A stretch of DNA of 42,794 nucleotides from Oscillibacter sp. Its GTDB lineage: Bacteria > Bacillota > Clostridia > Oscillospirales > Oscillospiraceae. The notes beneath the pieces were generated by a model. That model saw only the letters and a program-made list of their open reading frames with translations. It had not been told where the DNA came from and ran no database searches. The stretch covers positions 1 through 42,794 of the forward strand of contig JAAWLO010000011.1 in NCBI GenBank assembly GCA_022797935.1, read 5' to 3'. Of this stretch, positions 5,012-16,118 are shown piece by piece (the first letter of the stretch is position 1; the number at the start of each line of letters is the position of its first letter). The position numbers and the translations under genes were made by a program.

Positions 5012-6079
5012 TCAGCGCTTGATGTCAAAACTCATATCCATGAGACTTCGGATGCTCTTTACGTCGTCGGTGATATTCCCGTCACCGTGAATCGTATGCT
5101 TGATGACGCTGCTGGCCACGGCAAAATTGATCATATCCATGGGCTTATAACCGTGCATCATGGCATAAATCAAGCCGCTGGCGAAGGCGTCCCCGCCGCC
5201 CACCCGGTCCAGAATGTGGAAGGTGAAGCGCTTGCTCTCAAAGGTGTGTCCCTCGTACCACATGAAGGCCAGCAGGCTGTTCTCACTGCCGCTGTGGGCG
5301 TAGCGGACATGGCGGGCGATGCACTTGAGGTTGGGATACCGGGCGGCGAAAGCCTGAAAAATCTCGTCCTGCTGCTCGTACTCCGGCTGAAGGGGCACAC
5401 CGTTCTTCCAGTCCCCTTTTCCATGGTCCCTCTCATCCCGCCAGAGGTGATAGGGCTCTATGCCCAGGAGTACGTCCACATAGGGAAGGCACTGGGTACA
5501 GAAATCCTGGGCCTCCTCCCAGCTCCAGAGGGCGGAACGGAAGTTGCCGTCAAAGCTGATGGTCATACCCTTTTCCCGGGCAGTCCGCAGGCAGTCCAGC
5601 ACCAGCTTTCCGCAGCGGGGAGACAGGGCGGGGGTAATGCCGCTGAGATGCAGCCAGGTATAGCCCTCCAGCAGGGCGTCCAGGTCCAAGCGGGAAAAAT
5701 CATACTCCGTAAAGGCGCTGTTCTTCCGGTCGTAGGTAACCTTGCTGGGCCGGATGCCATAACCGGTTTCCAGGTAGTAGGCCCCCAGACGGTGGGTCGG
5801 GGTCTCCTCCGGCGTACTGAGAATAACGGCCGCACAGTGAACGTCGTTGCTCCGAAGCATCCGCACGGCGCTCTTGCCCAGGGAATTGTTGGGCACCACC
5901 GTGAAAAAGCTGCTGTCCACGCCCAGGTTCGCCAGGGCCAGGGCAATGTTGGCCTCACTGCCGCCATAGCTGGCCTCAAAGGTGTTGGCTACCCGGATTT
6001 TGCCGTAGTTGGGCGGCGTGAGCCGCAGCATAATCTCCCCAATGGTTATAAAGCGGCTGGCAGGGTTCGTATTTCCCAT
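5012..6079 (-). CDS. kdgK: 2-keto-3-deoxygluconate kinase (PfkB family)
   Basis: A 355-aa PfkB-type sugar kinase. The N-terminal substrate motif is YGGSEANIALALANLG (about residues 38-53) and the C-terminal signature is DRVGGGDAFASGL (about 285-297), with the catalytic Asp inside GGGDA. It phosphorylates KDG to KDPG, the step after both neighbours: ManD makes KDG from mannonate and KduD makes KDG from the diketo acid. The gap to kduD is 50 bp and to the upstream dehydratase 19 bp, so they are co-transcribed. A KDPG aldolase is not in the window and must be elsewhere. Fructokinase is the alternative, disfavoured by context. Confidence 0.8.
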   Translation of the reverse strand: MGNTNPASRFITIGEIMLRLTPPNYGKIRVANTFEASYGGSEANIALALANLGVDSSFFTVVPNNSLGKSAVRMLRSNDVHCAAVILSTPEETPTHRLGAYYLETGYGIRPSKVTYDRKNSAFTEYDFSRLDLDALLEGYTWLHLSGITPALSPRCGKLVLDCLRTAREKGMTISFDGNFRSALWSWEEAQDFCTQCLPYVDVLLGIEPYHLWRDERDHGKGDWKNGVPLQPEYEQQDEIFQAFAARYPNLKCIARHVRYAHSGSENSLLAFMWYEGHTFESKRFTFHILDRVGGGDAFASGLIYAMMHGYKPMDMINFAVASSVIKHTIHGDGNITDDVKSIRSLMDMSFDIKR

Positions 6080-6098
6080 AAGCGCGTCCTTTCCTTCC

Positions 6099-7346
6099 TT
6101 ACGGCGTCACCAGAGCGCCGTCCCTGGACCGGGTCTGCGTCCAGGTGGTCACCGTGTTCTCGCAGGGATACTTCGCGGCCTCGGCCTCATTGAGGTCCAC
6201 GCCCAGGCCAGGCTTGCCGTTGGCGTAGACATAGCCGTCCCGGTACTCCGGCAGGCCGGGGAACACCTCCAGCAGCGCGCCATGAGGTCCCTTCAGCTCC
6301 TGGATAACGAAGTTGGGCGGCTCAATCCCGGACCACTCCTGAACGCCGAAGTTCTGCGCCGCCAAGTCAATGTGGATGTTGGCGGCATGGGCCAGGGGGG
6401 ACATATCGCCGGGGCCGTGCCAGGCCGTGCGGACGCCGAACTGCTCCGCGAAAATCTGAATCTTCCGGGCCGGGGTAATGCCTCCCGCCTGGGTGATGTG
6501 GACCCGGATAAAGTCGATGAGCTGGCCGGCAATGAGCTCCCGCCACTCCCGCGGGTTGTTGAACAGCTCTCCCTCCGCAATGGGAATGCTGGTCTGCTGC
6601 CGGAGATTTTTCAGCCAATGGATCTGCTCCAGCGGAACAGGGTCCTCCAGGAAGAAGAGGTCGTAGGGCTCCAGCGCCCGGGCCAGCCGGATGGCGTCCA
6701 CCGGGGGAATCCGCTCGTGGACATCATGGACCAGCTGCATGTCAAAGCCAATCCGGGCGCGAATCTGGTCAAACAGCTTTACCGTATCCCGGATGTACTG
6801 CTTGGCGTCCAGATACATGCCATCGTGTGCGCCGGCGGGGGCCGTTTTGGGTATCTGTCCATAGGGCGCACCGCCGTAGCCGCCGCACTGGCACCGCAGG
6901 TGCGTAATCCCCATCTCCTGATAGCGGCGGATGTTGTCGCAGATTTCCTCAATATCCCGGCCGTCCACATGACGGTAGACCGGAACGGCCTCCCGGACCT
7001 TGCCGCCAAAGAGCTGGTACAGCGGCATGTTGGCCAGCTTGCCCTTGATATCCCACAGGGCCATGTCCACGCCGGAGATGGCGTTGTTTTCAATGGGCCC
7101 GTGACGCCAATAGGCATTCTGGTGCATCAGCTGCCAGAGCTCCTCGATGCACTCCGCGTCCCGTCCCACCAGCAGAGGCTCCAGATACTCCTCCACCAGA
7201 TGCGCCACGGCCAGATGGCGGTAGGCAAAGGTTGCGCAGCCCAGGCCATAGAGCCCCGGCTGGTTGGTCTCCACCTTGACCACCACCAGATTGATTCCCT
7301 CCGGAGCGGTACAAATGGCCTTAACCCCGCTTATTTTTACTGCCAT
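6099..7346 (-). CDS. manD: D-mannonate dehydratase, enolase superfamily (ManD/RspA type)
   Basis: A 415-aa enolase-superfamily enzyme of ManD/RspA type, which removes water from D-mannonate to give KDG. Metal and catalytic residues are visible: Asp-x-His in HDVHER, Glu in FFLEDP, Glu in IAEGELF, and His in AWHGPGDMSP. The YRHVDGRD region and long Gly-rich loop before it match the 150-180 loop of ManD. The frame is open upstream, but the ATG at 7346 follows GGGAGGAATGCTTT, so I start at MAVKIS. Some ManD-like proteins have low activity or prefer gluconate; the KDG-kinase partner supports a true sugar-acid dehydratase. The gap to the upstream regulator is 116 bp. Confidence 0.8.
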   Translation of the reverse strand: MAVKISGVKAICTAPEGINLVVVKVETNQPGLYGLGCATFAYRHLAVAHLVEEYLEPLLVGRDAECIEELWQLMHQNAYWRHGPIENNAISGVDMALWDIKGKLANMPLYQLFGGKVREAVPVYRHVDGRDIEEICDNIRRYQEMGITHLRCQCGGYGGAPYGQIPKTAPAGAHDGMYLDAKQYIRDTVKLFDQIRARIGFDMQLVHDVHERIPPVDAIRLARALEPYDLFFLEDPVPLEQIHWLKNLRQQTSIPIAEGELFNNPREWRELIAGQLIDFIRVHITQAGGITPARKIQIFAEQFGVRTAWHGPGDMSPLAHAANIHIDLAAQNFGVQEWSGIEPPNFVIQELKGPHGALLEVFPGLPEYRDGYVYANGKPGLGVDLNEAEAAKYPCENTVTTWTQTRSRDGALVTP

Positions 7347-7462
7347 AAAGCATTCCTCCCTCAATCATTCTGCCCCGCTTCCCGCCGGGGACGCCGCCTG
7401 CGCGGCGGAATATTCCGGAAATTTTCCCTGCCGCCCAGTCCGCAAGCCTTCCGCTTTTCTGC

Positions 7463-8158
7463 TCAGCGGGCCTCTTTTTCCTCATAGGCCAGCACCTGAC
7501 GCATAGTCACCTCCAGATGCTCCCGCATTTTGTCATGGGCCTCCTGACCGTCGCCCTTCCGCAGGGCCTCCAGAATAATGGTGTGGTACAGGATGCCGTT
7601 ATAATCCCCAATGAGGCAGTTCATCTGCTCGTGATTGTTCCGGGTCTCGGCGAACACCTTGTGCAGGCTCTTCTCCAGCAGGGAATTTCCGGAAGCCCGG
7701 CTGATTGCCTCATGAAATTCAATGTCCGCCCGGACAAACTTCACCGGATTGCCCCGGCCCCGCTCCATCTGCTTGAGACAGCGCTCCAGCTCCGCGAAGA
7801 TCTCCGGCGTGCAGTGCTCCGCAGCCATCCGGCAGGCCTCCGGCTCCAGAATCCGCCGGAATTCCAAGACCTTGTGAATATCCTGGCAATCCTCGGAGGT
7901 AATGCGGTTTTGGGCAATGTCCCAGCCGTCCGCCTGGCTGTCCACCAGGAAGGTGCCGCTGCCCTGGCGGCTTTTCAGCACGCCCACCCCCGTCAGGTAC
8001 TGGTAGGCGGACCGCACGCTGGCCCGGCTGATGCCAAGCTCTGCGGCCAGCTGGTTTTCCGAGGGCACCTTCTGCCCCAGGACCCACTCGCCAGAGGCAA
8101 TCTGCTCCTTGACATAAGCGAGGATTTGATTGGTTACCCGTTCGTTCTTGATAATCAT
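7463..8158 (-). CDS. GntR/FadR-family transcriptional regulator
   Basis: A 231-aa regulator. The N-terminal winged helix spans about residues 5-70 with LAAELGISRASVRSAYQYL as recognition helix and the wing SRQGSGTF. The C-terminal FCD ligand domain carries the metal-binding Asp-His pair in ADIEFHEAIS. It heads the hexuronate operon and very probably senses an intermediate such as a hexuronate, mannonate or KDG. I choose the ATG at 8158. The frame opens at a TTG at 8194, but that would include the operator at 8182-8196 and put the start before any ribosome site; GGGGAGGG precedes 8158, though at long spacing. Confidence 0.85.
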   Translation of the reverse strand: MIIKNERVTNQILAYVKEQIASGEWVLGQKVPSENQLAAELGISRASVRSAYQYLTGVGVLKSRQGSGTFLVDSQADGWDIAQNRITSEDCQDIHKVLEFRRILEPEACRMAAEHCTPEIFAELERCLKQMERGRGNPVKFVRADIEFHEAISRASGNSLLEKSLHKVFAETRNNHEQMNCLIGDYNGILYHTIILEALRKGDGQEAHDKMREHLEVTMRQVLAYEEKEAR

Positions 8159-8181
8159 GGATGCCTGCGCCCTCCCCGCAA

Positions 8182-8196
8182 AGTTGTATAACAACT
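8182..8196. promoter_or_regulatory. FadR-type operator of the hexuronate operon
   Basis: AGTTGT-ATA-ACAACT is a perfect 6-bp inverted repeat. It fits the FadR-subfamily consensus TNGT-N(0-3)-ACNA. It sits just downstream of the -10 box at 8206-8211, where a bound regulator would block transcription. Autoregulation by the adjacent FadR-type protein is inferred. Confidence 0.75.
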
Positions 8197-8511: not shown

Positions 8512-9153
8512 ATGAAATTGGAAACCATTGCCCGGACATTCACACGGCCCCGTATGGGACGCAGGCTGGCGGTCCTGACCGTCAGCCTGCTGGTCATCGG
8601 CGTCTGCGTCGCGGTATTCAAAACCGCCGGCTTCGGAACAGACCCCTGCTCCACCTTCACGCTGGGCGTCTCCGCTCACACCGGCATATCCTTTGGAACC
8701 TGCCAGCTGGTGTTCAATCTGCTGATGTTCCTCCCGGTTCTTCGTTTTGATCTCTCCCGCATCGGCATAGGCACCCTGGCCAACATGATCGGTGTCGGTT
8801 ACGCCGCGGACTTCTGTATGTGGGTCATCGGGCGGCTCACTCCGCCGGGAGGCCTCTCCATGGAGGTTCGGATTTTGCTGTTTGCCGCCAGCATGGCCGC
8901 GTTTCTGATTGCCGCCGCGTTTTATATTGTCGTGGACCTGGGCGTCGCGCCCTATGACGCCATTCCGCAGCTGATTGCGGCTCATACGGAAAAGCTTAGC
9001 GCCCGCTCCATTCGAATGCTGTGGGACATCTCCATTTTGTCCATGGGATTCCTTCTGGGCTCCGCCGTAGGTCTGACCACACTGCTCACCGGCTTCTGTC
9101 TCGGTCCCGCCATTTCATTTGTCTCCGGCCGTGTGAAAAACTGGTTTGAATAA
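8512..9153 (+). CDS. YczE/YyaS/YitT-type integral membrane protein
   Basis: A 213-aa membrane protein with about five hydrophobic helices (roughly residues 20-38, 58-75, 85-105, 118-142 and 165-200). The GFGTDPCSTFTLGVS motif after the first helix and GVAPYDAIPQ after a later one are hallmarks of the YczE family. Members are uncharacterised membrane proteins; B. subtilis YczE is linked to surfactin production, but no transport reaction is established. It is a single-gene unit with its own promoter, lying divergently from the hexuronate operon. There is no evidence that it transports uronates. Confidence 0.8.
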   Translation: MKLETIARTFTRPRMGRRLAVLTVSLLVIGVCVAVFKTAGFGTDPCSTFTLGVSAHTGISFGTCQLVFNLLMFLPVLRFDLSRIGIGTLANMIGVGYAADFCMWVIGRLTPPGGLSMEVRILLFAASMAAFLIAAAFYIVVDLGVAPYDAIPQLIAAHTEKLSARSIRMLWDISILSMGFLLGSAVGLTTLLTGFCLGPAISFVSGRVKNWFE

Positions 9154-9225: not shown

Positions 9226-9254
9226 TTGACAGTTCTCCCAAATCATGTTACATT
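9226..9254 (+). promoter_or_regulatory. Promoter of the dehydrogenase-fusion / flavodiiron operon
   Basis: TTGACA, 17-nt spacer, TACATT, about 57 nt upstream of the ATG at 9312. It is the best match between the two genes. Confidence 0.75.
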
Positions 9255-9311
9255 TGACTTAGTGCATGATGGTTTTACGACTGCCAATGATTACGCAAAG
9301 GAGGTCACCGT

Positions 9312-11222
9312 ATGTTGTTCCAGACCACACAGGCTCACGAGGAACTGCGTGCCAAAATCCGCGCCTTCGCCGAGACGGAGGTAAAGCCCAACGCCATCCT
9401 CATGGACCAGGAGAGCCGGTTCCCCGCTGAGGCCGTGAAAAAACTGGCCGAAATGGGGCTGATGGGCATCCCCTATCCCAAGGAGTACGGCGGCGCGGGG
9501 CTGGACGTGCTCAGCTATGCCATCGCCGTGGAAGAACTGTCCCGGGTGGACGGCGGCACAGGCGTCATTCTGTCCGCACACGTATCCCTGGGTACCTGGC
9601 CCATCTTCGCCTTCGGCACCGAGGAACAGAAGAAGAAATATCTGGCGCCTCTGGCCAAAGGCGAAAAAATCGGCGCCTTCGGCCTCACCGAGCCCAACGC
9701 GGGCTCCGACGCCGGCGGCACCGAAACCATTGCCATTGACAAGGGCGACCACTGGCTGCTCAATGGCCAGAAAATTTTCATCACCAACGGCGGCGTAGCG
9801 GATACCTATGTGGTCTTTGCCGTCACCACCCCGGATATCGGTACCCGGGGCATTTCCGCTTTTATTGTGGAGAAGGGCTGGAAGGGCTTTACCTTCGAGC
9901 CTCACTATGACAAAATGGGTATCCGCTCCTCCGAGACCTGCCAGCTGAACTTTGACGACGTGAAGGTCCCCAAGGAGAATCTGCTGGGCAAGGAAGGCCA
10001 GGGCTTCAAAATCGCTATGGCCACCCTGGACGGCGGGCGGATCGGCATTGCCTCCCAGGCGCTGGGCATCGCCCAGGGCGCCTATGAGTCCGCCGTGGAA
10101 TACGCCAAGGAGCGGGTTCAGTTCGGCAAACCCATCGGCTTTAACCAGGCCATCACCTTCAAGCTGGCAGACATGGCTACCCGGCTGAAATGCGCCCGAA
10201 TGCTGGTGTACTCCGCCGCCGAGAAGAAGGAGGCCCACGAGCCCTACGGCGTGGACGCCGCTATGGCCAAGCTCTATGCATCGGAAACCGCCCTGGCCGT
10301 GACCAATGACGCGGTGCAGATCTTTGGCGGCACCGGCTTCCTCAAGGGTATGGACGTGGAGCGGATGTACCGGGACGCCAAAATCACCACCATCTACGAG
10401 GGCACCAGCGAGGTCCAGCGGATGGTTATCGGCGCGTCCATCATGGGCAAGCCCCCCAAAGGCGCCGGCGGCTCTTCCAGCACAGCGAAGAAGCCCGCGC
10501 CTGTCACCGGTGTGCGCAAAGGCATGATTCTGAAGGAAGGCGATGCCAAGGAGCGGGTGGACACCCTGGTGGCGGCCCTGAAGAAGGACGGCCACGATTT
10601 CACGGTGGGCATCCCGCTGGATACCCCCATCGCCCTGGCGGAACGGGTGGTCTCCGCCGGACAGGGAATCGGCTCCCAGGAGAACATGAAGCTCATTGAG
10701 GACCTGGCGAAGGCGGCGGGCGCCGCCATCGGTTCCAGCCGTCCCGTGGCCGAGACCCTCAAGTATGTGCCGATGAACCGCTATGTGGGCATGTCCGGCC
10801 AGAAGTTCAAAGGCAATCTGTATATTGCCTGCGGCATCTCCGGCGCGATTCAGCACCTGAAGGGCATCAAAGAGGCGTCTACGATTGTGGCCATCAACAA
10901 GAGTTCCAACGCGCCTATTTTTAAGAACTGTGACTACGGCATTGTGGGGGATGTGAACGAAATCCTGCCCCTGCTGGCCCAGGCCCTGGGCCTGGAGGAG
11001 AAACAGCCCGCGCCTCCCATGGTGAAGATGAAGCGGCCTCCCGCTCCCCGGCCCGAGCCCATCGGCAAGCGGTACGTGTGCGGCGGCTGCGGCTACGAAT
11101 ATATCCCCGAGCGGGGCGACCCCGACGCGGAAGCGGCCCCCGGCACCCTCTTCGAGAATCTGCCCGAGGGCTGGGTCTGCCCGGAGTGCGCCGAGGGGAA
11201 AGACCGGTTTATCGAATCGTGA
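9312..11222 (+). CDS. Acyl-CoA dehydrogenase / ETF-alpha C-domain / rubredoxin fusion
   Basis: A 636-aa three-part redox protein. Residues 1-379 are a full-length acyl-CoA dehydrogenase with FGLTEPNAGSDAGG and catalytic Glu363 in IYEGTSEVQR. After a Gly/Ser/Pro linker, residues about 398-560 are the FAD-binding C-terminal domain of electron-transfer flavoprotein alpha (SSRPV, YIACGISGAIQHL, APIF, DYGIVGD); the ETF-alpha N-terminal domain and all of ETF-beta are absent. Residues 586-636 are a rubredoxin with both Fe knuckles, Cys590/593 and Cys623/626. Electrons from an acyl-CoA could pass FAD to FAD to Fe(Cys)4 inside one chain. AAAGGAGG precedes the ATG. The next gene, 50 bp on, is a flavodiiron protein, the classic rubredoxin oxidase. 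The acyl-CoA substrate is unknown. Confidence 0.9.
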   Translation: MLFQTTQAHEELRAKIRAFAETEVKPNAILMDQESRFPAEAVKKLAEMGLMGIPYPKEYGGAGLDVLSYAIAVEELSRVDGGTGVILSAHVSLGTWPIFAFGTEEQKKKYLAPLAKGEKIGAFGLTEPNAGSDAGGTETIAIDKGDHWLLNGQKIFITNGGVADTYVVFAVTTPDIGTRGISAFIVEKGWKGFTFEPHYDKMGIRSSETCQLNFDDVKVPKENLLGKEGQGFKIAMATLDGGRIGIASQALGIAQGAYESAVEYAKERVQFGKPIGFNQAITFKLADMATRLKCARMLVYSAAEKKEAHEPYGVDAAMAKLYASETALAVTNDAVQIFGGTGFLKGMDVERMYRDAKITTIYEGTSEVQRMVIGASIMGKPPKGAGGSSSTAKKPAPVTGVRKGMILKEGDAKERVDTLVAALKKDGHDFTVGIPLDTPIALAERVVSAGQGIGSQENMKLIEDLAKAAGAAIGSSRPVAETLKYVPMNRYVGMSGQKFKGNLYIACGISGAIQHLKGIKEASTIVAINKSSNAPIFKNCDYGIVGDVNEILPLLAQALGLEEKQPAPPMVKMKRPPAPRPEPIGKRYVCGGCGYEYIPERGDPDAEAAPGTLFENLPEGWVCPECAEGKDRFIES

Positions 11223-11272
11223 GCAGCCGTATTCCGGCTTCCAACATTCATCTCTGACAAGGAGGTTCCCTT

Positions 11273-12490
11273 ATGTACTGTGTACGCAATGTCACTGAGA
11301 ATTTATATTGGGTCGGCGCCAACGACCACCGCCTGCATCTCTTTGAGAACATTCACCCCATCCCCCGGGGCGTGAGCTATAACGCCTATCTGCTGCTGGA
11401 TCAGTCTACCGTTCTGTTTGACACCGTGGATTGGTCCGCCTGCCGCCAGCTGCTGGAAAATCTGGACTATCTGCTGGAGGACCGGCCCCTGGACTACCTG
11501 CTCATCAACCATATGGAGCCCGACCACGGCGCGTCCATCGAGGAAATTCTGATTCGCTGGCCGGACGTGAAGGTCATCTCCACGCCCAAGGCCTTCATGC
11601 TTATGCGCCAGTTCGGCTTCCACATTGACGGCCATGAGCTCATTGAGGTAAAGGAGGGGGACACCTTCTCCTTCGGCAGCCACACCGTTACGTTTGTGGA
11701 AGCGCCTATGGTCCACTGGCCCGAGGCTATGGTCACCTTCGACCTGACCAACGGCGTGCTCTTCTCCGCCGACGCCTTCGGCTCCTTCGGCGCGCTGGAT
11801 GGCAAGCTGTTCGCTGACGAGGTGAACTTTGACCGGGATTGGATTGACGACGCCCGGCGTTACCTTACCAACATTGTGGGCAAATACGGGCCGCACGTCC
11901 AGCTTCTGCTGAAAAAGGCCGGGGGGATTCTGGATAAAATCCAGTTTATCTGCCCCCTCCATGGCCCCGTGTGGAGGAAAGACCTGCTGTACTTTGTGGA
12001 CAAATACGACAAGTGGAGCAAGTATGAGCCCGAGGAAGAGGGTGTGCTGATTGCCTACGCATCCATGTACGGCAACACGGAATCCGCCGCGCAGGCCCTG
12101 GCCGCCAAGCTGTGCGAAAAGGGGATGAGCAACGTCTGGGTATACGACGTGTCCAACACCCACGTCTCTCAGCTGGTCAGCGAGTCCTTCCGCCTCAGCC
12201 ACCTGGTATTTGCCTCCGTTACCTACAACCTGGGCATCTACCCGGTGATGCACGACTTCCTGATGCACCTGAAAGCCCTGAACTTCCAGAACCGTACCTG
12301 CGCCATCATTGAAAACGGCTCCTGGGCCATCAAATCCGGCGATTTGATTCAGAAGTTCTTGGAAAACGACATGAAGAACATGACGGTCCTCAACGACCGG
12401 CTCACCTTGGCTTCCGCCCTTCACCCGGACAGAACCCTGGACCTGGAGGCGCTGGCCGGCTCCATTATCGAATCCATGTCCAAAAAGTAA
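11273..12490 (+). CDS. Flavodiiron protein (FprA-type, rubredoxin:oxygen oxidoreductase)
   Basis: A 405-aa class A flavodiiron protein. The metallo-beta-lactamase-like domain (1-250) has the diiron ligands His80-x-Glu82-x-Asp84, His147, Asp166 and His229. The flavodoxin domain (about 258-400) has the FMN loop ASMYGNTE. Such enzymes reduce O2 to water, and some reduce NO to N2O, taking electrons from rubredoxin. There is no fused rubredoxin here, but one is present at the C-terminus of the protein encoded just upstream. The AAGGAGG site and 50-bp gap suggest one operon. It is likely cytoplasmic and important for oxygen tolerance in an anaerobe. There is no C-terminal flavin reductase domain. 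Confidence 0.93.
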   Translation: MYCVRNVTENLYWVGANDHRLHLFENIHPIPRGVSYNAYLLLDQSTVLFDTVDWSACRQLLENLDYLLEDRPLDYLLINHMEPDHGASIEEILIRWPDVKVISTPKAFMLMRQFGFHIDGHELIEVKEGDTFSFGSHTVTFVEAPMVHWPEAMVTFDLTNGVLFSADAFGSFGALDGKLFADEVNFDRDWIDDARRYLTNIVGKYGPHVQLLLKKAGGILDKIQFICPLHGPVWRKDLLYFVDKYDKWSKYEPEEEGVLIAYASMYGNTESAAQALAAKLCEKGMSNVWVYDVSNTHVSQLVSESFRLSHLVFASVTYNLGIYPVMHDFLMHLKALNFQNRTCAIIENGSWAIKSGDLIQKFLENDMKNMTVLNDRLTLASALHPDRTLDLEALAGSIIESMSKK

Positions 12491-12504: not shown

Positions 12505-12540
12505 GGTCCCGCCTTTTGCACACCGGCGAAAGGCGGGACC
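12505..12540. terminator. Bidirectional terminator hairpin
   Basis: A 12-bp perfect stem GGTCCCGCCTTT / AAAGGCGGGACC with a 12-nt loop between two convergent genes. The T-tract is poor on both sides (AGTTTGTT on plus), so efficiency is uncertain. Confidence 0.6.
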
Positions 12541-12580: not shown

Positions 12581-13630
12581 TCATACGTCAAAATCCAGAA
12601 CCACTTTGAACGCCTCGCGGGTTTCCAGCAGCTTCATGGCCCGCTCAATTTCCGTGAACGGAATGACATGCGAGTAAAAGTCCTTCGGGTTGACCGCGCC
12701 CTGCTCAATCAGTTTCACGGTCTCCGGCAAAATGTCGTATTCGCCGTAGGGGAAATTCAGCATGTGCAGACGCACATTGTTTTTCAGCCTGCTGGCGTCC
12801 AGCATGGTATCCCCCGCCTTCAGCACCCCCAGAGAACCCAGACATCCGCCCTCCTTCAGATATTGACTGCCCTCCAGAACAAGGGCGCTGCTTCCCACCG
12901 CGTCTACAACCAAATCAAAGCGTTCCCGGCCAATCGCCTCCGAAAGACAGCTCTTTCGGAAATTCAAGGTGCGGTCTGTACCCGCAACCCGTTTCGAATA
13001 TTCCAGCCGTTCCTCAATCCCGTCAATCACGGTAATCTCTCCCGCTCCATACAGCTTCATGAAGCGCGCCAGGGCGGTTCCCATGGGACCTGCGCCATAG
13101 AAAAGCACACGGTCCCCAAGCTTCACGCCGAAATTTCTGGCCGCACTATGACATTCACAGAGCGAGAGCAGCACCGCAGCGTCCGGAAAGTCTATGCTTG
13201 GGGGAAACCGGCCCTGTTTCTGATAGAACGGTACGGCGGTCTCTTCGCATACGCCGTCTTCCACCATGGCTCGCTGGTCGCAGACCAACCCGAACTGCGC
13301 CATGCCGCCGTATGTCTTCGTATAGCCGTTTCCCACATCCGGACGAAGATTGGGGTGAATGAACCGGTCTCCCAGTTTGATATGGCGCACCTTTTCGCCG
13401 GTCCGAATCACCTCTCCGGCCCCTTCGTGTCCAAGCACTGTGGGAAAACCGCAGAATCCCTGGGCCGCGTTCGCCTTCCCATGGATGATGCCAAAATCCG
13501 TACCCGTACAGAAACCGCAGGCATGGACACGGCACAGGCAATCATAGGGACCCAGTTCGGGAACCGGGATATCATCCGCAATGATTACGGTATTTTCCTC
13601 TGTGACCACAACGCCTTTCATCCGTTCCAT
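12581..13630 (-). CDS. Zn-dependent medium-chain dehydrogenase (polyol/threonine-dehydrogenase-like)
   Basis: A 349-aa MDR-family dehydrogenase. Catalytic-zinc ligands are in GFCTGTD (Cys) and VLGHEGAGEV (His-Glu); the NAD-binding motif is YGAGPMG (about residue 180). The four-cysteine loop that holds the structural zinc in most MDR enzymes is absent: that region reads NLRPDVGNGYTKTYGG. The ATG at 13630 has GGGAGG upstream and lies next to the kinase stop, so the two are translationally linked. In context it probably oxidises a polyol or sugar imported by the nearby ABC system before phosphorylation and aldol cleavage. The exact substrate cannot be read from sequence. Confidence 0.8.
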   Translation of the reverse strand: MERMKGVVVTEENTVIIADDIPVPELGPYDCLCRVHACGFCTGTDFGIIHGKANAAQGFCGFPTVLGHEGAGEVIRTGEKVRHIKLGDRFIHPNLRPDVGNGYTKTYGGMAQFGLVCDQRAMVEDGVCEETAVPFYQKQGRFPPSIDFPDAAVLLSLCECHSAARNFGVKLGDRVLFYGAGPMGTALARFMKLYGAGEITVIDGIEERLEYSKRVAGTDRTLNFRKSCLSEAIGRERFDLVVDAVGSSALVLEGSQYLKEGGCLGSLGVLKAGDTMLDASRLKNNVRLHMLNFPYGEYDILPETVKLIEQGAVNPKDFYSHVIPFTEIERAMKLLETREAFKVVLDFDV

Positions 13631-13632
13631 TG

Positions 13633-15129
13633 TCAGCCTCCCTGCCTCTGCCGTTCCAAATCCTGGTTAACCGGGTACAGCGCATTGCCCAGCGTACGGT
13701 AAACCGCGTACAGCCGGTCGTAGAGGGCCTTCGTCTCCTGCTGCGGGACAGCCGTCTTCCCCAGGCGGAAGGTTTTTTCGACAGCCTCTCCCGCGTCTTT
13801 ATAGACCCCCGCTCCGATGCCGGCCAGCAGCGCCGCGCCCAGAGCCGTACATTCCCGCACGGCGGGAACCTCGATTTTCACACCCAATACATCCGCCTTA
13901 ATCTGCAGCCAGCGGGAATCCATGGTTCCGCCGCCAATGGCAACCACCCGTTTCGGGCAACTTCCGCCGGAAAGCGCCTCCATAGTCAGACGCAGTTCAA
14001 AGGCCACCCCCTCATAGACCGCCTGCATGAAGTCCCCCCAGGTGTGGTGCGGCTGTATGCCGGCCAGGGCTCCTTTGGACATCTGGTCCCGCTGGGGGGA
14101 ACTGCTTCCCCGCAGATGGGGCAAAAACAGCAGTCCGTTGGCGCCGGGCCGGCTGCCGCCGCTGCCGCCGGAGGCGGGAAACAACGTACGTTTGAACCAG
14201 TCAACCGACGCGCCGGAGGCCGGAATTCCGCCAGCGGTGTAACATTTCCCCGGGGCAACATGAAACCCGGCATGGAATCCGGCCCGGCTCAGGGACCGCG
14301 TATCCTGCATGCTGTCCACGCTGACCAGGACCTCTTCGCAGGTGCCGGAGGAATCCAGCGCCACGCCGGGAGCAACCACGCCCGCCGCCAGCGCCCCGCA
14401 AATGTGGTCGTGTCCGCCCGCAAAGACCGGCGTTCCCGCCTTCAGGCCGCACTGCGCGGCAGCAGCCGGCGTCACTTCCCCAATTTTTGTCCCCGGCGGC
14501 ACCAGCTCCGGCAGAATGTCTCTGGGGATTCCGCCGTGGGCCAGCACTTCTTCTGACCAGGCTTTTGTGCGGACGTCCAGAAGCATCGTTCTGGACGCTA
14601 TGGAATAGTCCATGGCGGAACGTCCGGTGAGGCGGCAGGCAATGAAATCCGGCAGGCAGTTCCAGCGCTTCATCCTTTTGAAGACGGCCGGTTCCTGTTC
14701 CTTCAGCCACAGAAGCTTGTTGGCCGTGAAGATATGCCGGTTTTTCAGATTGGTAATTTCAAACAGCCGCTCACTGCCGAAGGTCCGGCCCCACCAGTCC
14801 GGACAGCCTTCGGTTCGGGGATCAAACCAGGCGATTACCGGATACAGGACACGGCCGTCCCCGTCCATTGGAACCCCTGCCTCTCCCATGCCTGTAACGG
14901 CAATGCCGGAAACACCGCCGGTTCCGCAGGCCTCGTGCGCACCGGCCAGCCTTTGAAGCAGCTGACAGCAGATCTGCCAGAGCGCCTCCGCGTCAAAGAT
15001 TCCGCCGCCTGCCTCCAAAAGCGTGAGAGGAGACGGCGCCCGCGCCTCCCCCGCAGTCCGGCCTGTCTCGTCAAACAGCAGCGCTTTGACATGGGTCGTA
15101 CCCAGATCAAGGCCGAGTAAATACCGCAA
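13633..15129 (-). CDS. FGGY-family carbohydrate kinase
   Basis: About 498 aa, the size of xylulokinase-type FGGY kinases. The N-terminal phosphate motif is LLGLDLGTTHVKALL, the sugar region AGGHDHICGAL is mid-protein, and the C-terminal adenosine motif is VAIGGGTMDSRWLQIKADVLG. I start at the TTG at 15129 because AAGGGGGGCAGC sits 7-15 nt before it; the frame extends to a GTG at 15156 that lacks a ribosome site. It should phosphorylate a ketose or related sugar, giving the substrate of the aldolase encoded upstream. The gap to the aldolase gene is 61 bp. Substrate options include xylulose, ribulose, fuculose or an unusual ketose. Confidence 0.85.
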   Translation of the reverse strand: MRYLLGLDLGTTHVKALLFDETGRTAGEARAPSPLTLLEAGGGIFDAEALWQICCQLLQRLAGAHEACGTGGVSGIAVTGMGEAGVPMDGDGRVLYPVIAWFDPRTEGCPDWWGRTFGSERLFEITNLKNRHIFTANKLLWLKEQEPAVFKRMKRWNCLPDFIACRLTGRSAMDYSIASRTMLLDVRTKAWSEEVLAHGGIPRDILPELVPPGTKIGEVTPAAAAQCGLKAGTPVFAGGHDHICGALAAGVVAPGVALDSSGTCEEVLVSVDSMQDTRSLSRAGFHAGFHVAPGKCYTAGGIPASGASVDWFKRTLFPASGGSGGSRPGANGLLFLPHLRGSSSPQRDQMSKGALAGIQPHHTWGDFMQAVYEGVAFELRLTMEALSGGSCPKRVVAIGGGTMDSRWLQIKADVLGVKIEVPAVRECTALGAALLAGIGAGVYKDAGEAVEKTFRLGKTAVPQQETKALYDRLYAVYRTLGNALYPVNQDLERQRQGG

Positions 15130-15190
15130 TCCGCTGCCCCCCTTCCATTGGCGCACACGCTGGAACCAGGAAGCGCTGCCCCATTTCTGT

Positions 15191-16036
15191 TCAGTACCGG
15201 TTTTCCGCTCCGCAGATATGGATCCAATCCTTCACAACCGGGCGGATGGCGGCTTTGATGGGATTCATGATGTCCGAGACGCTGCACGCCGGTCCGCCGC
15301 CCAGCTGCCTGCGCAGCTCCTCCAGATAGACCGCGTGAAGCTGGGTTCCAACATTGACCTTGGCAATGCCGTTCCGAATGCAGCTCCGCACCGTCTCCGC
15401 CGGTACGCCGGTTCCGCCATGCAGGACCAGCGGAATCGAAACGGCGTCGTTCACCTCCCGCAGCCGCTGAAGATTGACGTTTGGTTCCTGCCGGTAAAAT
15501 CCGTGAGCAGTGCCGATGCCTACCGCCAGGGAATCCACACCGGTCTCCCGGGCCAGTCTCACCGCATCCGCAACGCAGACCAGGTAGTCCTCGCCCAAAT
15601 ACGCGCCCTCCGCATTCCGGCCCAAGATGCGGCCAATCTCCGCCTCCACCGCAACGCCGTATCGATGGGCATACGCCACAACCGCAGAGGTCTTTTCAAT
15701 GTTTTCCTCCAAAGGGCACATGGACGCGTCAATCATCACCGACAGATAGCCGCAGTCCACGGCCCGCTTGCAGAGCTCCACCGAGCTGGAGTGGTCCAAA
15801 TGATTGAAAATGCGTCCGCCCGACAGGTCGTAGGCCGTTCTGCCCATTGCCCCTAAGTACTCCAGGCCAATGGTCTCCGCCACCCGCATATTGGCCGCAA
15901 TGTAAACCGGCGCCCGCTCTTCTATAGCCGCCTCCGCAATTGACAGCAGCTCCCAGATATCGGAATAGTTGAAAGCCGGAACGGCAAAGCCCGCCCGGTC
16001 CGCTGCGGTCAGAATGGATGGTTTGTCACATTCCAT
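15191..16036 (-). CDS. Class II (zinc) ketose-bisphosphate aldolase
   Basis: About 281 aa. Class II FBP/tagatose-bisphosphate aldolase motifs are clear: NHLDHS (zinc His and catalytic Asp), VEAEIG, GTAHG (zinc His), VLHGGTG (zinc His) and KVNVGT. The frame begins at a GTG at 16048 that overlaps the AGGAAGG ribosome site, so I choose the ATG at 16036. The protein is shorter than housekeeping FBA and sits in a sugar operon with an FGGY kinase and dehydrogenase. This suggests a catabolic aldolase for a dedicated ketose phosphate (tagatose/fructose bisphosphate or a 1-phosphate) rather than glycolysis. It is the first gene of the operon. Confidence 0.88.
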   Translation of the reverse strand: MECDKPSILTAADRAGFAVPAFNYSDIWELLSIAEAAIEERAPVYIAANMRVAETIGLEYLGAMGRTAYDLSGGRIFNHLDHSSSVELCKRAVDCGYLSVMIDASMCPLEENIEKTSAVVAYAHRYGVAVEAEIGRILGRNAEGAYLGEDYLVCVADAVRLARETGVDSLAVGIGTAHGFYRQEPNVNLQRLREVNDAVSIPLVLHGGTGVPAETVRSCIRNGIAKVNVGTQLHAVYLEELRRQLGGGPACSVSDIMNPIKAAIRPVVKDWIHICGAENRY

Positions 16037-16118
16037 TTGGAAATTCACCTTCCTGCCGAAGGGAACGGATGGCCGGTCCCGAAACGTTCCCTTTCGAATT
16101 CTTTTATTTGATGATTGT

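Follow-up and report, generated by a model that had tools for sequence, protein, structure and literature searches.

The window analysed here, a 42,794-nucleotide stretch of DNA from an Oscillibacter sp. genome (contig JAAWLO010000011.1), carries a gene pair that is very probably a new member of the butyryl-CoA oxygen oxidoreductases (BOOR), a machine already described in Fusobacterium in 2024. The first gene (9312..11222, +) encodes a 636-aa fusion protein (BCR) made of an acyl-CoA dehydrogenase, the FAD domain of the electron transfer flavoprotein (ETF) alpha subunit, and a rubredoxin. The second (11273..12490, +) encodes a 405-aa flavodiiron protein (FDP) with a beta-lactamase-type diiron domain and a flavodoxin domain. 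Both were assigned from the list of open reading frames (ORFs), Pfam, the Protein Data Bank (PDB), and alignments, and both ORFs were found exactly where a preliminary description of this DNA had placed them. The genes lie on the same strand with an intergenic gap of 50 bases, and each has its own GGAGG-type ribosome-binding site, read from the sequence (GGAGG at 9300..9304, +, for the fusion gene and AGGAGG at 11260..11265, +, for the FDP gene). They thus appear to form a bicistron, which matches the arrangement of BOOR.

The dehydrogenase occupies residues 6-377 of the fusion (9327..10442, +; Acyl-CoA_dh_N 6-118, 1.5e-41; Acyl-CoA_dh_M 122-217, 1.2e-26; Acyl-CoA_dh_1 229-377, 4e-51), and its best PDB relative, among 60 of 206 matches listed, is the acyl-CoA dehydrogenase chain 5ol2_C. 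The FAD-binding domain of ETF-alpha covers residues 440-559 and includes Gln451 (10629..10988, +; ETF_alpha 440-520, 8.1e-28, extended to 559 by tblastn), and its PDB relatives are ETF alpha subunits. The rubredoxin domain follows at residues 587-633 (11070..11210, +; Rubredoxin, 2e-17), and the PDB relatives of this C-terminal tail are free rubredoxins. Linkers separate the dehydrogenase from the ETF-alpha domain and the ETF-alpha domain from the rubredoxin, and among 60 of 79 matches listed no PDB match had a best stretch covering both of the latter. An AlphaFold model of the fusion had a pLDDT of 85.3 and a pTM of 0.70, with residues 384-394 below 50. The Pfam result confirms the earlier claim that an intact acyl-CoA dehydrogenase, a lone ETF-alpha FAD domain, and a complete rubredoxin are joined in one 636-aa chain, and its E-values rule out a chance ORF. 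The seven families that Pfam lists for the fusion and the FDP include no ETF N-terminal domain and no ETF-beta domain; the fusion holds the ETF-alpha FAD domain only, and not a complete ETF (EtfA plus EtfB).

The catalytic Glu363 and the rubredoxin cysteines 590, 593, 623, and 626 are all present in the aligned fusion; the roles of these residues, and of the metal ligands of the FDP below, are those that we take to be general for their families. Across 131 full-length fusions, an alignment from which eight rows without rubredoxin, representing five distinct genes, and the short-trimmed L070 were set apart and from which L157 and L172 are absent, Glu363, Arg477, Gln514, His515, and Asn529 are invariant. 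The four rubredoxin cysteines are present in 129 of the 131; the two exceptions, L142 and L144, have none of the four and belong to one genus (g358) of another family (f6).

In the FDP, Pfam recognises the ODP beta-lactamase domain at residues 35-231 (1.6e-17) and a partial Flavodoxin_1 at 260-326 (3.8e-6, profile positions 1-64 of 143), and its 17 PDB matches are flavodiiron NO/O2 reductases. All 128 aligned FDPs, a set that leaves out those cut by contig ends, carry the diiron ligands H80, E82, D84, H85, H148, D167, and H230 without exception. The next gene is therefore, as originally proposed, a flavodiiron protein with all seven diiron ligands. With a beta-lactamase diiron domain and a flavodoxin domain only, and its ligands intact, it belongs to class A, which is defined as the two-domain type in PMC12288474.

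In Fusobacterium nucleatum, the pair FN1424-FN1423, likewise a fusion (BCR) and an FDP, couples butyryl-CoA oxidation to the reduction of O2 to water; it was named BOOR, and BCR and FDP form an alpha4-beta4 complex, according to a J. Bacteriol. review (PMC12288474). That review attributes BOOR to Bystrom & Wolthers 2024, and the same account is repeated in PMC12630350. The window pair shares with FN1424 and FN1423 both the domain order of the fusion and the bicistron with an FDP. Specifically, the dehydrogenase, the ETF-alpha C-terminal (FAD) domain, and the rubredoxin stand in that order in one chain according to Pfam, and the catalytic Glu, the four rubredoxin cysteines, and the seven diiron ligands are present according to the alignments. 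These domains and residues, together with the gene order and the conserved pairing described below, are what the window itself provides. The reaction proposed for it is the one measured in F. nucleatum, and the same reaction, the butyryl-CoA substrate, and the order of electron hops are inferred for the window proteins. In this scheme, the dehydrogenase domain would oxidise butyryl-CoA to crotonyl-CoA, and electrons would pass from the dehydrogenase FAD to the FAD bound by the ETF-alpha domain and then to the rubredoxin iron. The separate FDP would receive them at its FMN and diiron site and reduce O2 to water. From the sequence, the preliminary description had concluded that oxidation of an acyl-CoA is coupled to the reduction of O2 to water. 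This inference was right and, since the corresponding bicistron of F. nucleatum has been measured to catalyse that reaction (PMC12288474), already published for a relative.

Two other groups of enzymes are comparable in part. The NADH:O2 flavodiiron fusions (the multidomain FDP of C. difficile and the flavodiiron-rubredoxin-rubredoxin oxidoreductase of Trichomonas) are described as likewise self-contained, with a rubredoxin carrier and an O2-reducing FDP. Their donor is NADH, whereas in the window pair an acyl-CoA dehydrogenase and an ETF flavin take that place. The acyl-CoA dehydrogenase-EtfAB complexes (PDB 5ol2 and 6fah) contain the same dehydrogenase family and the same ETF-alpha FAD domain as the fusion. 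They presumably carry a complete two-subunit ETF and differ in this from the fusion, which keeps one ETF domain and continues into rubredoxin.

A survey of co-occurrence had been proposed from the outset, with fusions commonly found apart from an FDP gene counting against the reading; rubredoxin-bearing fusions did not show this, and the survey supports the reading. The contig scan with the window fusion gave 380 confirmed candidates, of which the best 80, all named records, were surveyed; they are 79-95% identical to the window fusion along the whole chain, and the nearest are labelled Oscillospiraceae or Clostridiales. Because these 80 relatives share the fusion, an assembly artefact is ruled out. 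An FDP follows on the same strand in 78 of the 80, starting 17-572 bases past the last aligned codon, and in the two misses (L048 and L053) the contigs stop 84 and 5 bases after the fusion. Similarly, an FDP adjoins the fusion in all 52 further rubredoxin-bearing loci (L084-L087, L118-L164, and L177; L176 repeats L144, L157 is cut by a contig start, and some genomes possibly share a species with one of the 80). The same holds for 30/30 loci of family f6, a set in which one FDP is partly obscured and two loci repeat genomes of the 52. Additionally, the distance matrices of BCR and FDP are correlated (r = 0.93 over 122 pairs, against 0.31 for the best of 1000 permutations), a figure that includes species kinship. 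In one relative (L052:13220-14404, -), a second FDP copy (56%) lies on the opposite strand directly after the BOOR FDP.

Fusions that reach into rubredoxin are unevenly distributed. They were found in 5 of 398 genomes of a phylum sample, 31 of 391 of a class sample, 21 of 200 genomes of the window's family, and 87 of 130 genomes of family f6, each count including the source genome of the query. For the window's genus, two other genomes were listed: G853 gave no match, and the tail of G926 shows 75% identity, which is below most listed genomes of the family's other genera and below G316 of another family (81%). This patchy spread suggests that the fusion may have been exchanged between lineages. 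No F. nucleatum record is among the best 80 of the 380 candidates. F. nucleatum belongs to another phylum than the window's organism.

A small number of fusions allow the pairing to be viewed from the other side. Five distinct ones end after the ETF domain (in genomes G092, G719, G805, and G819 and at G734:C7:165822; L167:9386-11071, L171:8617-10308, L173:9972-11690, L174:7979-9676, and L175:8474-10159), and no FDP match was found near them within about 8-10 kb on each side, or, for G819, within the 557 bases of contig that follow the fusion. A sixth, broken rubredoxin-less fusion (G734:C4) stands head to head with a divergent FDP (41%). Five of the six rubredoxin-less fusions are thus FDP-less, so that within this limited set the rubredoxin domain and the FDP occur together, a pattern consistent with an electron exit via the rubredoxin domain towards the FDP. 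The rubredoxin-less, mostly FDP-less branch would hand its electrons to another acceptor. One of its members (L171) sits between genes for a 3-hydroxyacyl-CoA dehydrogenase and an acetyl-CoA hydrolase/transferase. Family f6 has 28 listed rows of this shorter type, some with stops; the neighbourhoods covered among them are those of the two G734 rows. In the family tree, the rubredoxin-less fusions are on long branches and are not placed.

The preliminary description inferred O2 as the acceptor and named NO as an alternative in the assay that it proposed. Reduction of NO by the pair, instead of or besides O2 and with acyl-CoA as donor, could be argued from the FDP, whose best NCBIfam and PDB relatives are flavorubredoxin NO reductases. 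However, F. nucleatum BOOR was without NO reductase activity (PMC12288474), and on that ground NO reduction was rejected as the main role. Tyr266 of the FDP points the same way: each of the 128 aligned FDPs has Tyr here, and the residue corresponds in the alignment to E. coli position 262, the site of E. histolytica Tyr271 (PMC13133992). This argument is weak, because introducing a tyrosine into the E. coli protein left its selectivity unchanged (PMC13133992). O2 is thus retained as the acceptor, and a share for NO is, by homology, highly improbable.

The window's genome, which is 84% complete, contains one further acyl-CoA dehydrogenase (Bcd), adjoining EtfB and a protein that matches 1u8v at 847 bits. 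The record of 1u8v is named gamma-aminobutyrate metabolism dehydratase/isomerase, which we take to be 4-hydroxybutyryl-CoA dehydratase. EtfA (on a different contig, at its edge), RnfC, and a thiolase are also present, and the genome therefore seems to hold parts of a route from crotonyl-CoA to butyryl-CoA. Given these parts, the pair could burn the reduced product, butyryl-CoA, when O2 leaks in. A different substrate is conceivable: the fusion might serve propionyl-, acryloyl-, or another short-chain acyl-CoA, with pathway redox balance rather than oxygen defence as its main role. The genome's own EtfA scores above the curated cut-off for acryloyl-CoA reductase (650 bits vs 600), so that the route may end in butyryl-CoA or propionyl-CoA. 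The same enzyme is the best match, below cut-off, for Bcd (535 vs 640), for a shortened EtfB (438 vs 475), and for the fusion itself (480 vs 640). Against this, the tested relative, F. nucleatum BOOR, uses butyryl-CoA (PMC12288474), and the gene adjoining the genome's Bcd is 4-hydroxybutyryl-CoA dehydratase-like. Another substrate and role are therefore considered unlikely, and a butyryl-CoA (short-chain acyl-CoA) oxygen oxidoreductase is in all likelihood what the window pair encodes. A second, stand-alone FDP is present in the genome (L168:8186-9391, contig C128), 55% identical to the window FDP; it lies downstream of a regulator that looks TetR-type by eye and close to a thiolase gene.

The fate of the rubredoxin domain in genus g358 bears directly on the electron path. 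Of the 87 f6 genomes with a rubredoxin-reaching fusion, 29 belong to g358, and two more g358 genomes gave no match. All 29 fusions have a rubredoxin-like tail with zero cysteines in the last 70 residues (L208-L236, e.g. L209:304-2226). The four cysteines are replaced by D, S, S, and S: in place of YxCxxCGY these tails read YVDLGSGY or a variant of it, for example YVDTGSGY, and in place of WVCPxC they read WVSPVS. Outside g358, the four cysteines are present in 58 of 58 f6 fusions (49 + 8 + 1, the last being L237), and the loss is therefore confined to one genus within f6. Eight sampled cysteine-less rows form one clade in the tree (100/100), whose nearest sister, L237, has all four cysteines. 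Pfam still scores the cysteine-less tail as rubredoxin (50.5 bits), and codon alignments gave a tail dN/dS of 0.089 (359 of 406 pairs); for two other sets, whose tails are intact, the values were 0.111 (769 of 1035) and 0.205 (273 of 903). Saturated pairs had been dropped from these estimates, and dS was near saturation. Judged by these ratios, the rest of the cysteine-less domain is under purifying selection. An FDP is downstream in 29 of 29 loci, with intact diiron ligands in the aligned rows (30 rows, two of them repeats, from 28 genomes), and 22 FDP columns differ between g358 and the rest. Free single-domain rubredoxin was found in five of five g358 genomes tested, as well as in the intact sister G1032. 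An AlphaFold model of the isolated cysteine-less domain was of low confidence (pLDDT 61.1, pTM 0.34), and Foldseek matches to rubredoxins add little.

In the g358 lineage, the iron hop may not be needed, or it may be supplied from outside. If the former were true of the whole family, the rubredoxin domain would be mainly a docking scaffold and electrons would pass directly from the ETF flavin to the FDP FMN. A whole genus in which purifying selection maintains the domain despite the loss of its iron ligands, with an FDP adjacent, fits such a scaffold. In contrast, the 129 of 131 full-length fusions with four cysteines, both exceptions being from g358, and the 58 of 58 f6 fusions outside that genus show a conservation not expected of a pure scaffold, which makes a family-wide docking role very unlikely. 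For g358 itself the case is evenly balanced that its BOOR has dispensed with the rubredoxin iron (the fold serving for docking, and electrons passing from the ETF flavin to the FDP FMN directly or via free rubredoxin) and that the rubredoxin-less branch uses another acceptor. No mention of an iron-less rubredoxin in BOOR was found in the BOOR, rubredoxin, and FDP literature, coverage of which is partial and excludes the original description of BOOR; to our knowledge, a genus with such a rubredoxin is unreported. If the loss is as described, g358 represents a natural iron-removal experiment on the electron wire of BOOR, and makes it testable whether the rubredoxin iron is a needed relay or the domain is mainly a docking part.

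Residue 451 of the ETF domain (10662-10664) is also variable. It is Gln in the window fusion and Arg in the genome's own EtfA, where an Arg at the matching position presumably tunes the ETF flavin. Among the 131 full-length fusions it is K in 70, Q in 45, L in 6, V in 4, M in 3, R in 2, and another residue in 1. A rough motif match gave K in 32, Q in 8, and 9 unresolved for the 49 other f6 fusions. Arg451 is found in all 29 g358 fusions, in their sister L237, and in two rubredoxin-less fusions (L173; L165 = L174). As L237 combines Arg451 with four cysteines, Arg451 would have preceded the cysteine loss or arisen apart from it.

Several of these observations weigh against placing the window pair in BOOR or against a simple wire. 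Membership is defined by architecture and gene order, and not by alignment to the tested F. nucleatum enzyme. Acryloyl-CoA reductase parts are the best NCBIfam matches of both the fusion and the genome's Bcd-Etf, residue 451 is Gln where the genome's EtfA has Arg, and the broken sixth rubredoxin-less fusion does have an FDP beside it. The g358 rubredoxin without iron ligands, moreover, means that the iron hop cannot be general.

With regard to physiology, the pair may protect the anaerobe, as first suggested; for BOOR, a part in energy conservation together with bifurcating Bcd-Etf and Rnf has been put forward alongside protection (PMC12288474). According to its discoverers, butyrate-forming anaerobes could use BOOR to turn O2 into water and conserve energy at the same time (PMC12288474), which makes the spread of BOOR in gut Clostridia relevant to how oxygen is dealt with there. 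A 2026 preprint describes BOOR pairs in Clostridia of the gut (Oscillospiraceae, Acutalibacteraceae, Eubacteriaceae, and Lachnospiraceae) that adjoin close homologues of an Rrf2-type regulator; of 149 neighbourhoods, 123 contain BCR and 115 contain FDP. The preprint also credits the 2024 paper with noting the pair in butyrogenic gut Firmicutes (PMC13404960). The window pair differs from these in that its upstream ORF is YczE-like; an Rrf2-type regulator was not seen beside it, although no search was aimed at Rrf2. The YczE-like membrane protein (8512-9153) is directly upstream of the bicistron on the same strand and scores 91.6 bits in NCBIfam, with a cut-off of 205.

A promoter-like site (TTGACA-17-TACATT, with TG preceding the second hexamer; 9226..9254, +) suits the bicistron by position, and an intrinsic-terminator-like hairpin of 15 pairs lies 3' of the FDP gene (12505..12540, +). 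The scans found 2 promoters with 1.4 expected from shuffles, a count not above them, and 8 terminators with 3.9 expected; such counts say little. Domain library scans identified sugar-acid and sugar genes on the opposite strand on both sides of the bicistron (5012-8194 and 12581-16048), comprising a mannonate/galactonate dehydratase family member, a KDG-type kinase, a GntR regulator, a zinc dehydrogenase, an FGGY kinase, and a class II aldolase. The neighbouring genes, which are mostly of this kind, have no evident link to the bicistron.

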